Made by a program: the position numbers and the translations under genes. This document shows, one piece after another, positions 13,423-18,034 of a stretch of 64,000 nucleotides of DNA. Numbering within the stretch: position 1 is the first letter of the stretch; every line of letters begins with the position of its first letter. This DNA is from Methanothrix thermoacetophila PT (GTDB taxonomy: Archaea > Halobacteriota > Methanosarcinia > Methanotrichales > Methanotrichaceae), in assembly GCF_000014945.1 (NCBI RefSeq), contig NC_008553.1, positions 1,116,001-1,180,000 of the forward strand. Reading direction: 5' to 3'. The notes below the pieces were generated by a model. The model made no database searches. It had not been told where the DNA came from and saw nothing but the letters and a program-made list of their open reading frames with translations.

Positions 13423-14019
13423 TTACGCCTCGGCCACCTCGTAGTCTGTGTCCATGGTATCCTGGAGGCCGTCTTTGGATATGTGGGAGACCATCCTCTC
13501 AGAGACGTCCTGATCTGACAGTATCTCCTCGAACCTCTTGAGGTATCCGTCCCTCTCAGCAGCCCTTTGGCTCTCGAATATGTTCTTGTACTCGCTCACG
13601 GTGGATGGAGCCACATGAAGGACCTCGCTCATCTCCTTCACAGACTTCCCCTCCTCCCAGAGCTTTATGAAGAGCTCCCTGTCGAAGGGCGGCTTGAGAT
13701 CCGAGTCACGGAAGAGATGGAGCTTTATCCGCGCTCTGCTCACGGTCTTGTTGAGCGCGCGATCTCCTAGCTGCTCTGCGATCTCGGTATCGCTGAGGCC
13801 TTTGTAAAACAGTCTTACAACAGCCGCGAGCTGTTTTGGTGTGAGCTTTGTCTGTATGTTATATGCCTTAATCATCTCAGAGACGACGCCAAGAAGTGCC
13901 TGCTCGATCTCAGAAGTGCTTCTCAACGTTCCATGCTTTTTGGCAGGCTTCTCGACGACCTTGGTCGTGGGGGCGATCTTCAGGACGAGCTCTCTTAAAT
14001 GATCGGTCTTGCCGCTCAA
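13423..14019 (-). CDS. HTH regulator, conditioned-medium-induced protein 4 (Cmi4)-like
   Basis: 198 residues from a TTG start with GGTGAT just upstream. Two helix-turn-helix regions are visible: LTPKQLAAVVRLFYKGLSDTE and the following IAEQLGDRALNKTVSRARIKL (about residues 58-98), and KLWEEGKSVKEMSEVLHVAP followed by STVSEYK (about 118-145). The N-terminal GKTDHLRELVLKI and overall plan resemble the haloarchaeal conditioned-medium-induced protein 4, named from memory of that family. It probably binds DNA as a transcription regulator; targets are unknown. No partner gene is close. Confidence 0.65.
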   Translation of the reverse strand: MSGKTDHLRELVLKIAPTTKVVEKPAKKHGTLRSTSEIEQALLGVVSEMIKAYNIQTKLTPKQLAAVVRLFYKGLSDTEIAEQLGDRALNKTVSRARIKLHLFRDSDLKPPFDRELFIKLWEEGKSVKEMSEVLHVAPSTVSEYKNIFESQRAAERDGYLKRFEEILSDQDVSERMVSHISKDGLQDTMDTDYEVAEA

Positions 14020-14871: not shown

Positions 14872-16971
14872 TCATGAGTCGATCTGGAGACGTGCACAAT
14901 TTCCTGTAATCTTCTCGGATCGCGACTGTGTGTTACGGAACCTCGTCAGCAGCGCCTCGTAGAACGTCCTCTCCTTCCCTTCTGTTGTTCTGACAAGCCT
15001 GTCGAGTATGAGCTCTGGCGTTGATCTGGCCAGATGGTTGTACCTCGGACTCCTGCTGAGTATGAGGTTGTTCCTCTCATCCAGGCCCTCTGCTTCTATT
15101 CCATCCACCCTGACAGCTGTCCTTGAAAATCTGCGTATCTCATCTGCGAGATGGCTCACGAAAAGAGCCACAGAGCCGTTCTCCTGGACCATATCAAGTA
15201 TCGATGCGATTATCCTGGCAGATGCCCCTGGCTCTGTTATCGCTTCCAGCTCGTCCGCGAGCACGAGCTTTCTTTTCTCGGTTGCGAGAGCTGAGAGCTT
15301 TCTCATTGTGCTCTCGAACGCCCCCGCACTGAGAGTGCCACTGCTCTTTGCAAAGAAGTAAAGCTCATCGAATATCGATATCCTGCACTCACTGGCAGGA
15401 ACAGGCAGGCCCATGTGTGCGAGTATCGCTATCTGCGCCATCAGCTCAAGGAGCGAGGTCTTGCCGCCGGAGTTCACACCGCTCAGTATCGCTGCCTTTT
15501 CAGTGTACTCCCGGATCCCACATGCACCCAGACTGTAGCTGACAGGCTCCGGGTTCTGTATGAATAGATGCCTGCCATCGCGGAATCCTATCCCAGGATC
15601 GTGGATGAGCTCAGGCATTGTGAGACCGCATGAGATGGCGAAGTCTCCGATGGCGTAAAGAAAATCGAGCTGTATGAGTTTTTTTATGAGATTCGCTGTG
15701 AGACCATCCATGTTCGCCAGGGATCCGGCGATCTCTCTCTTCCTCCTCAGCCCTTCTGCCTCCCTCCTCCTCCTCAGCTCAATCTCAAGCTGGCGCAGAG
15801 CTCTGTGGTTGATCTCCAGAGGGTATTTTATCTCCTCGGGTATGATCTCCTCCAGCCAGATTGCCTCTCCTTTAAGGTTCAGATCAGCAGCGACCCTCGC
15901 CCTCGCCTCTGATATCACAGATTTGAAGATCCCATGCATCTGCGTCTCAAACACATCCCTGATCATATCCCCGCGCCCGAGCGCTCTGAGGAGATCCGGG
16001 CCTCCAAGGGTCACAGAGCTCGTCTCTATGCGCTTGCGGAGCTCTGTGTTCGCCTGGGCGAGCGCTGAATCAACCGCCGCAGGTAATCTTTTAAGAAGAT
16101 CATCAATGCGTGATATGTCTGATTGATCTTCATCATCGAACAACCTTCTGAGCGCATTCCTGAGCTTACTCAGATCCTCAAAGTGCTCGATGCCTCTCTC
16201 CTCAAGCACTGCTGCGAGCTCCATGGCGGCCTCCAGAGCGTCTCTGTTCTCTGTATAGAAGCTCAGCACTGCCTCGGGGGCAATGTACCAGATGTCAAGC
16301 TGCTCCGCGATCTCCACACCTGGGAGGGGTACTCCAGGGTCGCTGAGAACGATCACATGATCGTAGCCGCTGGCGATATCCCGTAGCTCTCCTGGGCTCT
16401 CTGCCAGATGTATGTCGAGGAGGCGGTCAAAGCCCATCGACCTCGCCATTGCGAGCTCCTCTGGGGATCTAGCGGCGATAGCCCTCCCTTTTATTCTCTG
16501 AGCGCCCCTCCGCCTGAGCGGCTTTATCCTGCGCAGGAGATCTCTTACATCTCCGAGCCTCCTGCGAAGATCCATGGCGCGCAGCGAGACCGAGCGCATC
16601 TCTTTTATGAGCTCTGGAGATCCTGAGGGGAAAAGGGTGGAAATCCGCATGATGGCATACGCCGTATTCGCATGCTCCGCTATTCTGTTCAGGATCGTTC
16701 TGTATATCCGCTCGGCCTCATCAGTGGCCAGGAATGACTCGGGGGAGACACCGTACCTCAGGCCTCTGGCTGCTCTGACAGTGGCTATGGCATGGCGCTC
16801 GCCGATCGCCGCTCTCAGATCATTCATATCCTCATCTGCGATCGCCCTGAGGGCCATCTCCTCGCTCTCGAAATATGAGAGTAAGCGCTCCCTCAGGCGG
16901 GGCCCCACCCCGGGAATGTCCTGCAGTCTCACAGCATGGAGTGAAATGCTTTCTATATATGAAAGTCTCAT
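14872..16971 (-). CDS. MutS-like ATPase with N-terminal helix-hairpin-helix (archaeal MutS2-related)
   Basis: 699 residues from ATG 16971 (MRLSYIESISLH). A longer frame to 17145 exists, but its extra 58 residues look random and run across the divergent gene. Residues 16-30 (LQDIPGVGPRLRERL) are a DNA-binding helix-hairpin-helix. A long helical region follows, then the MutS ATPase with Walker A GVNSGGKTSLL (498-508), Walker B KLVLADELEAITEPG (D573, E574) and a signature helix around SAGAFESTMRKLS. There is no mismatch-recognition domain and no C-terminal Smr nuclease, so a role in recombination or branched-DNA processing is more likely than mismatch repair. Divergent from the FtsZ-like gene with 21 bases between starts. 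Confidence 0.82.
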   Translation of the reverse strand: MRLSYIESISLHAVRLQDIPGVGPRLRERLLSYFESEEMALRAIADEDMNDLRAAIGERHAIATVRAARGLRYGVSPESFLATDEAERIYRTILNRIAEHANTAYAIMRISTLFPSGSPELIKEMRSVSLRAMDLRRRLGDVRDLLRRIKPLRRRGAQRIKGRAIAARSPEELAMARSMGFDRLLDIHLAESPGELRDIASGYDHVIVLSDPGVPLPGVEIAEQLDIWYIAPEAVLSFYTENRDALEAAMELAAVLEERGIEHFEDLSKLRNALRRLFDDEDQSDISRIDDLLKRLPAAVDSALAQANTELRKRIETSSVTLGGPDLLRALGRGDMIRDVFETQMHGIFKSVISEARARVAADLNLKGEAIWLEEIIPEEIKYPLEINHRALRQLEIELRRRREAEGLRRKREIAGSLANMDGLTANLIKKLIQLDFLYAIGDFAISCGLTMPELIHDPGIGFRDGRHLFIQNPEPVSYSLGACGIREYTEKAAILSGVNSGGKTSLLELMAQIAILAHMGLPVPASECRISIFDELYFFAKSSGTLSAGAFESTMRKLSALATEKRKLVLADELEAITEPGASARIIASILDMVQENGSVALFVSHLADEIRRFSRTAVRVDGIEAEGLDERNNLILSRSPRYNHLARSTPELILDRLVRTTEGKERTFYEALLTRFRNTQSRSEKITGNCARLQIDS
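16950..16961 (+). promoter_or_regulatory. TATA box of the FtsZ-like gene
   Basis: TTCTATATATGA, about 32-43 bases upstream of ATG 16993 and lying inside the first codons of the divergent MutS-like gene. Confidence 0.4.
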
Positions 16972-16992
16972 ATGACCTGGAAGGGGAAGATC

Positions 16993-17868
16993 ATGAGCAA
17001 TCCTGGCAGGCCAGAAATCTTCGTGGCCGGATTCGGCACTGGTGCTGATCTCGTGCGCCGGCTGGCCGTGAGCAGGGATGGCATTGCGGGCGATGTGATA
17101 TACACCGATCGCAGATCCTGCGTTATATCGATTGATGATGGGCAATCAGTCGATATGCGTGCACCCTGCTGTGTGAAGGGTCTGTTTGAGCTCCTGGGAA
17201 GTGCAGCGGTTGTTTTCATGATCTCCGATTGCAAAGAATGCATACGCACGTCACGCCTCGCAACCAGGATTGCGGAAGAGAGTGGTGTCGCAGTCATGGT
17301 TTTTATGATTGAAGATGAAGATGGTCAGCTGGAGATGCCTGATGACCTGGGGCTCCACAACTGCGACCATGAATGGATCTGCGAAAGAAGCTCTGTGGTG
17401 GTTGTCGACGTTCCCTCTGATTTGGATGATGAGCTGCGTCTTGCGAAGATGATTGTATGCATATCAAAGATGCTGCTTGAGCCCTCTACAATAAATCTCG
17501 ACCTTGCGGATCTCAGGACGGTAATGCGCTGCGGCACAGAGGCATGTATAATCTCCGGAACAGGCAGATCTCCTGAGCTCGCCCTCCAGGACGCTCTCGA
17601 TAAATCGCTGAGCCTCATGGCTCCAAGTCGAGTGAGAGGCTGCCTCCTGCACATAACAGGTGGATTGAATCTGACGTTGAGGGATGCGAACCTCATAGCA
17701 GAGAGCATGACTGGGGCGCTCGATCAACATGCGAATATTATCTGGGGTATGAGGGTGAGGGATGAGCTGGATGTGATAGAGATCACAGCGGTGCTCACAG
17801 GGAAAAATATAAAATTACAGAGTTCCAGAAGGAGTTCTGAAAAGAGGGCATGCAGCTGGAGGGTCTGA
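16993..17868 (+). CDS. Degenerate FtsZ/tubulin-superfamily protein
   Basis: 291 residues from ATG 16993, preceded by GGAAGGGGAAG. The C-terminal half matches FtsZ closely: the T7 catalytic loop is kept as TINLDLADLRTVM (N168, D170, D173), followed by GCLLHITGGLNLTLRDAN (216-233) and ANIIWGMRV (247-255). The N-terminal half is shortened. Its first strand and loop FVAGFGTGADLVRRL (10-24) recall the T1 loop, but the GTP-binding signature GGGTGTG is absent, with ISDCKECIRTS (77-87) in its place, and 12 cysteines are scattered through the protein. It probably no longer binds GTP normally and may act as a partner or regulator of true FtsZ. Confidence 0.78.
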   Translation: MSNPGRPEIFVAGFGTGADLVRRLAVSRDGIAGDVIYTDRRSCVISIDDGQSVDMRAPCCVKGLFELLGSAAVVFMISDCKECIRTSRLATRIAEESGVAVMVFMIEDEDGQLEMPDDLGLHNCDHEWICERSSVVVVDVPSDLDDELRLAKMIVCISKMLLEPSTINLDLADLRTVMRCGTEACIISGTGRSPELALQDALDKSLSLMAPSRVRGCLLHITGGLNLTLRDANLIAESMTGALDQHANIIWGMRVRDELDVIEITAVLTGKNIKLQSSRRSSEKRACSWRV

Positions 17869-17947: not shown

Positions 17948-18034
17948 ATGACAGCAGAGCTCGGCGCGCTGGCAGTTTCTCTGATCCTGATAGCGGCTCT
18001 GGTCTACAGCATAAAGCTCTACATGGATGTATGA
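17948..18034 (+). CDS. Possible 28-residue single-pass membrane peptide
   Basis: An ATG preceded by GGTGAGG opens a 28-codon frame beginning MTAELGALAVSLILIAALVY and ending IKLYMDV. It is one transmembrane helix with a short charged tail. It follows the FtsZ-like gene by 79 bases on the same strand and its last 16 bases overlap the end of tyrS, which runs the other way. The clear ribosome site and clean hydrophobicity argue for expression; the short length makes chance possible. Confidence 0.42.
   Translation: MTAELGALAVSLILIAALVYSIKLYMDV

Follow-up and report, generated by a model that had tools for sequence, protein, structure and literature searches.

Methanothrix thermoacetophila PT encodes a real, conserved pseudo-GTPase derived from FtsZ2, a protein from which the GTP-binding signature of FtsZ has disappeared and in which the T7 face is kept, with parallel cases elsewhere in the Methanotrichaceae and a plausible mechanism as a GTP-free accessory of FtsZ1. 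The gene lies within the window, by which we mean the whole stretch of DNA analysed (64,000 nucleotides; positions 1,116,001 to 1,180,000 of contig NC_008553.1), in a genome that consists of a single contig of 1,879,471 bases. Its open reading frame is unbroken and gives the translation quoted in the preliminary description (Table 1).

Table 1. Positions in the window of the ftsZ2-like gene, of the parts of its product and of the downstream gene.
Feature	Position	Strand	Remarks
FtsZ2-derived pseudo-GTPase, 291 aa	16993..17868	+	start (MSNPG) conserved in the genus; in-frame ATG also present upstream at 16972
Degenerate N-terminal GTPase domain, residues 8-144	17014..17424	+	strands and helices predicted; GTP loops T1-T6 lost or altered
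ISDCKECIRTS in place of the T4 signature GGGTGTG	17221..17253	+	
T7 loop and start of helix H8, PSTINLDLADLRTVM	17482..17526	+	catalytic-type N168, D170 and D173 intact
C-terminal FtsZ domain (S7-H9-S8-H10-S9-S10)	17533..17805	+	pLDDT >90 over most of the domain; without SepF-binding tail
Single-transmembrane microprotein, 28 aa, MTAELGALAVSLILIAALVYSIKLYMDV	17948..18034	+	partner gene directly downstream of ftsZ2

The preliminary description had aligned the C-terminal half of the protein with FtsZ by eye, and profile and structure searches bear this out. Pfam FtsZ_C (PF12327) matched residues 196-270 (E = 3.1e-12; 47 bits against a cut-off of 27), and all PDB sequence matches to the 291-residue protein were to FtsZ (best E = 7e-13) and covered the C-terminal half only. 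TIGR00065 (ftsZ) matched residues 150-282 (E = 4.9e-18) with 65.6 bits, far below its equivalog cut-off of 295.2, and no curated family matched residues 1-145 above cut-off. A genome-wide search with the Tubulin family (PF00091) returned FtsZ1 (gene at G000:C1:966380-967450, match at C1:966494) and CetZ (G000:C1:236876-237415) above cut-off, and the gene studied here was not among the matches. A weak Tubulin match (22 bits, below cut-off) fell on a 509-residue protein starting MRSCCVGIGGCGGKMLEVF (locus L153, 1063-2589, + strand; match G000:C1:435406-435675), which is possibly a further FtsZ-like protein. AlphaFold modelling from 35 alignment rows (pLDDT 79, pTM 0.80) predicted an FtsZ fold with a reduced Rossmann-like N-terminal domain, helix H7, the T7 loop and a confident C-terminal domain, and the top Foldseek matches in the PDB were all FtsZ (E-values down to 7e-15, TM-scores mostly 0.5-0.62). 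As a control with three genus rows only gave a pLDDT of 42 and a nearly unchanged order of predicted elements, the fold assignment, including the confidence in the N-terminal domain, depends on the canonical FtsZ2 rows of the alignment.

We sampled six members of the genus of M. thermoacetophila (g1), and the full-length protein was present and intact in all six genomes (65-70% identical in the genome search, 63-69% by tblastn) and nowhere else among 61 genomes; it is no oddity of a single strain. Purifying selection on it is strongest at T7, as detailed below. Of the outcomes that the preliminary description had named as refuting it, neither a predicted fold unlike tubulin/FtsZ nor a confinement to this strain with signs of decay was seen. 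The other members of the family encode a canonical FtsZ1 (~33% identical to the protein) and, with exceptions, an FtsZ2 of 340-410 residues that is ~37-44% identical over the C-terminal half. In a whole-protein tree, the g1 proteins fell inside the Methanotrichaceae FtsZ2 clade (support 100/99), with a very long stem (6.2 changes per site), and FtsZ1 stood apart at 100/100. A tree from the C-terminal 122 residues alone kept the FtsZ2 placement (99/94) with a stem of 1.8; the exact sister of g1 within the FtsZ2 clade, where long branches meet, is unsure. By phylogeny, the gene is an archaeal ftsZ2 orthologue. Origins from FtsZ1, CetZ or FtsZl were rejected on the tree and on the higher identity to FtsZ2 than to FtsZ1, CetZ having been left out of the tree and having given no match in the protein search. 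The host genome retains a normal FtsZ1, a CetZ and a SepF; SepF was found in all 38 genomes searched, and FtsZ1 was canonical in our motif table wherever its N-terminal half was readable. Sampling across the class, we found a long FtsZ2 match of at least 62% identity in 76 of the 77 genomes that do not belong to the family, the sole genome without one being G114 (93% complete). The motif GGGTG[TS]G was present in 77 of 80 FtsZ2 loci from GTDB, which were the best matches to the query rather than an unbiased census, and the three exceptions were all from the Methanotrichaceae. Makarova and Koonin mention in general terms that some archaeal FtsZ paralogues lack key motifs (PMC2875224), and we found no description in the literature of a degenerate FtsZ2 in the Methanotrichaceae.

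Loss and retention divide the protein by face. An FtsZ subunit rests on the GTP of its neighbour with a face made up of T7, H10, S8 and S9 (PMC8936486, PMC11938149); H10, S8 and S9 are its C-terminal polymerisation face (PMC11938149), and the T7 residues D210 and D213 of a Staphylococcus aureus subunit hold the catalytic water at the GTP of the following subunit (PMC8936486). The preliminary description had read the absence of GGGTGTG, the shortened N-terminal half and the intact T7 residues correctly: the N-terminal half lacks ~45 residues (T2/H2 to T3/H3 region), ISDCKECIRTS occupies the position of the signature within a stretch, ISD..E..RTSRLA, that is nearly invariant across g1, and the T7 loop, NLDLAD, carries its two catalytic aspartates in all six genus members. 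The protein has lost the glycine-rich T3 and T4 loops together with the contacts of T2 and T6, and it keeps only part of the T1 glycines. Counting columns at least 90% conserved in 84 canonical FtsZ2 proteins and averaging over g1, we found that ~13 of 62 such columns were retained across T1-T6, with 0.2 of 10 in T2, 2.5 of 10 in T3, 4.3 of 21 in T4 and 1.8 of 14 in T5-T6. Retention was 1.7 of 15 in H7 and 4.3 of 16 in S7-H9, and on the bottom face it reached 7.8 of 9 in T7-H8, 7.8 of 10 in S8-H10 and 9.7 of 12 in S9-S10; seven of the nine canonical T7-H8 columns were retained in every one of the six members. The destroyed part is the opposite, GTP-bearing face of the subunit, and part of the S8-H10-S9 conservation may be structural. 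A SepF-binding tail of the GID/IDxI type known from other archaea (PMC8178401, PMC12583498) was not found in g1, where the proteins end in ...KNIKLQSSRRSSEKRACSWRV and in variable forms. The tail is also missing from FtsZ2 of g3, g5, g6, g7, g9 and g10, and FtsZ1 retains it as HGIDFL.

Within the Methanotrichaceae the GTP signature has disappeared about three times. FtsZ2 is canonical in the Methanosarcinaceae and in g2 (most genomes), g5, g7, g10 and g11, whereas T4 has changed in g3 (to GLGDGTGTF) and in six of the nine g9 genomes (e.g. GLGDGAGGG, GLGDAAAGG and GLGEGMKPEG) and absent from all six g1 genomes; on the tree, parsimony requires three changes of T4 state. The T4-broken g9 proteins (Methanothrix harundinacea group; genomes G013, G024, G030, G020, G018 and G028; loci L010, L012, L014, L036, L043 and L046) resemble those of g1 in the parallel loss of GGGTGTG and the tail, but they are near full length, more mildly eroded and placed as a separate loss on the tree. 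In two of them (G018 and G028; L043 and L046) the second T7 aspartate is gone as well (NLDYAG), and the microprotein described below was not found beside the T4-broken g9 genes. We compared pN/pS, as pair averages from simple counts in small samples rather than a likelihood test, for the N-terminal domain, the 30 codons around T7 and the region from H7 to the end of the C-terminal domain. In g1 the values were 0.61, 0.12 and 0.28, respectively, rising to 0.91 in the loop of residues 27-63. The T4-broken g9 clade gave a similar contrast (0.62, 0.145 and 0.37), T4-intact g9 gave 0.33, 0.18 and 0.27, and the canonical FtsZ2 of the Methanosarcinaceae gave no regional contrast (0.04, 0.02 and 0.04). 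The canonical FtsZ1 of g1 is nearly frozen (0.01, 0 and 0). The same rate contrast in two lineages argues that T7 is maintained for its function and does not simply decay later than the rest.

These data bear on the reading that FtsZ2 is losing its job across the Methanotrichaceae, and that the g1 gene is at a late stage of relaxed selection with its function gone. FtsZ2 evolves fast throughout the family, on long branches, and ftsZ2 was missing, also when a canonical query was used, from five of 37 family genomes (G006, G008, G016, G033 and G035; 93-96% complete); in G012 (L180) it is spread over three frames, reflecting a pseudogene or an assembly error. The high pN/pS of the N-terminal domain and of the 27-63 loop, and the loss of the tail, point the same way. 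However, six frames have stayed intact while diverging to 63-70% identity, for which a crude neutral simulation that assumes independent lineages gave a probability below 1e-4 that all six copies would be free of stops, even with each lineage at 0.1 substitutions per site. The low pN/pS of T7, the conservation of the newly arisen ISD..E..RTSRLA stretch and the recurrence of the T7-kept pattern in a second clade argue against decay as well, and we consider it unlikely that the gene is dying. A pseudogene or sequencing error in g1 was rejected on the six intact frames and the purifying selection, decay without function being kept as the rival just weighed.

The reading we favour, to which we would give about an even chance, is that g1 has made of FtsZ2 a GTP-free accessory of FtsZ1, whose T7 face docks on GTP-bound FtsZ1 and caps or activates it. 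With the GTP loops and the SepF tail lost, formation of FtsZ2 filaments and anchoring by SepF are probably no longer possible, and we infer that the protein neither binds GTP nor polymerises. The bottom face that is kept, with the two T7 aspartates, helix H10 and strands S8-S9, would dock through T7 on an FtsZ1 subunit, at its GTP-bound top face. Its only docking place would be an FtsZ1 top bearing GTP, which would be exposed at one end of a filament or on free monomers. A subunit docked there would complete the GTPase site of its FtsZ1 partner and block further addition at that point; as its own ruined top face would accept no subunit, it would either cap the filament end or sequester free FtsZ1 and activate its GTPase. 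Control of FtsZ by capping is established (PMC11938149), and the FtsZ1 and FtsZ2 of an Asgard archaeon (the Odinarchaeota pair) co-sediment with GTP (PMC12583498). The five relatives without ftsZ2 and the two g9 proteins without the second T7 aspartate indicate that such a role would be dispensable in some sisters. More tentatively, and with rather less than an even chance of being right in our judgement, the Methanotrichaceae may more than once have made of FtsZ2 a GTPase activator or end cap that supplies T7 to FtsZ1 and binds no GTP itself, perhaps working together with the ftsZ2-linked membrane microprotein, which is not SepF.

The microprotein, a candidate new divisome membrane peptide, has relatives of 23-31 residues with one helix and a consensus ending in IYSIRLYLEI. 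It lies directly downstream of ftsZ2 in g1, g2, g6, g8, g10 and g11 and, in diverged form, in g7 (E-values 1e-3 to 1e-15; loci with this arrangement include L008, L011, L015, L018, L023, L031, L033, L034, L038 and L170), and possibly also in g3 (E = 0.26); outside the Methanotrichaceae it was not found at E < 0.1. Between g1 and other genera all larger neighbours differ, and the ftsZ2-microprotein pair was the only conserved context that we found: synteny with canonical ftsZ2 through large neighbours was not found, the MutS-like and TyrRS flanks being specific to the genus. The microprotein linkage common to g1 and the canonical ftsZ2 of the family supports positional orthology. The survival of this pair in g1 through the change of all other neighbours, together with the need for another anchor once the SepF tail is lost, could also mean that the protein is a GTP-independent scaffold or anchor at the septum that works with the microprotein and no longer contacts FtsZ1 through T7. 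Yet the microprotein persists in four g2 genomes without ftsZ2 (G006, G016, G033 and G035), it is missing from g4, g5 and nearly all g9, or cannot be recognised there, although g5 and g9 retain ftsZ2, and a pure scaffold would not need conserved catalytic aspartates; a scaffold of this kind seems to us distinctly unlikely.

The retained surface is, in addition, a hotspot of known FtsZ inhibitors (PMC11938149), and the bottom face could in principle act as a decoy or landing pad that titrates MinC-, MciZ- or SulA-like inhibitors, through H10, S8 and S9, away from FtsZ1. No such inhibitor was identified in this analysis and a decoy role alone does not explain the conservation of the T7 aspartates, so we hold this to be very improbable. 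That the protein still binds GTP or another nucleotide at a rebuilt site, with ISDxxExxRTSR standing in for GGGTGTG, and polymerises seems to us highly improbable: a Rossmann-like core is predicted and the genus conserves the stretch that replaces T4, but the loops and contacts that would form the site are gone from T2, T3, T4 and T6 and partly from T1, and the Tubulin domain gave no match.

The g1 protein as proposed here resembles ARC3, a division regulator of chloroplasts with a diverged FtsZ-like domain that acts on canonical FtsZ. ARC3 differs from the g1 protein in being a plant protein of unrelated origin with MORN repeats, which negatively regulates Z-ring placement. MciZ, SulA and MinC exert the same kind of control as that proposed for the g1 protein, as end caps or sequesterers, but they have no homology to FtsZ and attach to its bottom (C-terminal) face, whereas the g1 protein would bind the GTP-bearing top. 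CetZ and other archaeal tubulin-like proteins belong to the same superfamily; CetZ keeps its GTPase domain, while the g1 protein groups with FtsZ2. The FtsZ2 of Haloferax volcanii and the Methanosarcinaceae is an orthologue by phylogeny that has the C-terminal domain and T7 in common with the g1 protein, which in comparison is ~100 residues shorter and lacks the GTP signature and the SepF-binding tail. In H. volcanii, SepF binds FtsZ2 and not FtsZ1 (PMC8187382), and the GTPase activity of FtsZ2 and SepF are reported to be essential for constriction (PMC7617429). Reading the g1 protein as a GTP-free helper conflicts with this model, in which FtsZ2 GTPase and SepF drive constriction. As the only FtsZ2 of g1 would hardly be able to constrict or to bind SepF, constriction would fall to FtsZ1 alone or to something else; if the Haloferax logic holds in these genera at all, FtsZ1 would have to carry it out. 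Where the GTP site has repeatedly been lost and T7 preserved, nature has in effect separated the functions of the FtsZ active site, which makes it possible to test whether a subunit that itself binds no GTP can supply T7.

The preliminary description had reasoned that growth as filaments in a sheath would make an unusual divisome partner sensible, an argument weakened by our survey. Sheath proteins are reported in several lineages, including ones that contain Methanophagales (PMC11576556), and canonical FtsZ2 is present both in Methanophagales (L074, L081, L100, L102, L114, L118 and L137) and in most genomes of g2, a sister genus that includes records of Methanosaeta and Methanothrix; the sheath as a cause of the change in FtsZ2 is therefore unsupported. 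In a weaker form of the argument, FtsZ2 may be less needed where the envelope is rigid, by analogy with walled archaea such as Methanobrevibacter smithii, which possess only one FtsZ (PMC7617429).

A ribbon-helix-helix regulator is reported as a neighbour of archaeal ftsZ2 (PMC8178401, PMC9871819), and in a Pfam search of the adjacent genes only (the MutS-like gene and two more) it was not among the matches. The MutS-like gene (14872-16971, - strand) encodes a MutS-domain-V protein with a helix-hairpin-helix start and is divergent from the ftsZ2-like gene, the two starts lying ~20 bases apart, an arrangement seen only in g1. A conserved TATA-like stretch upstream of the ftsZ2-like gene was set aside because it falls inside the start of this divergent gene. 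At 13423-14019 (- strand), the window also encodes a 198-residue protein with sigma-70 region 4-like and other helix-turn-helix matches, which is unusual for an archaeon and is 98% identical in another member of the genus (L072).
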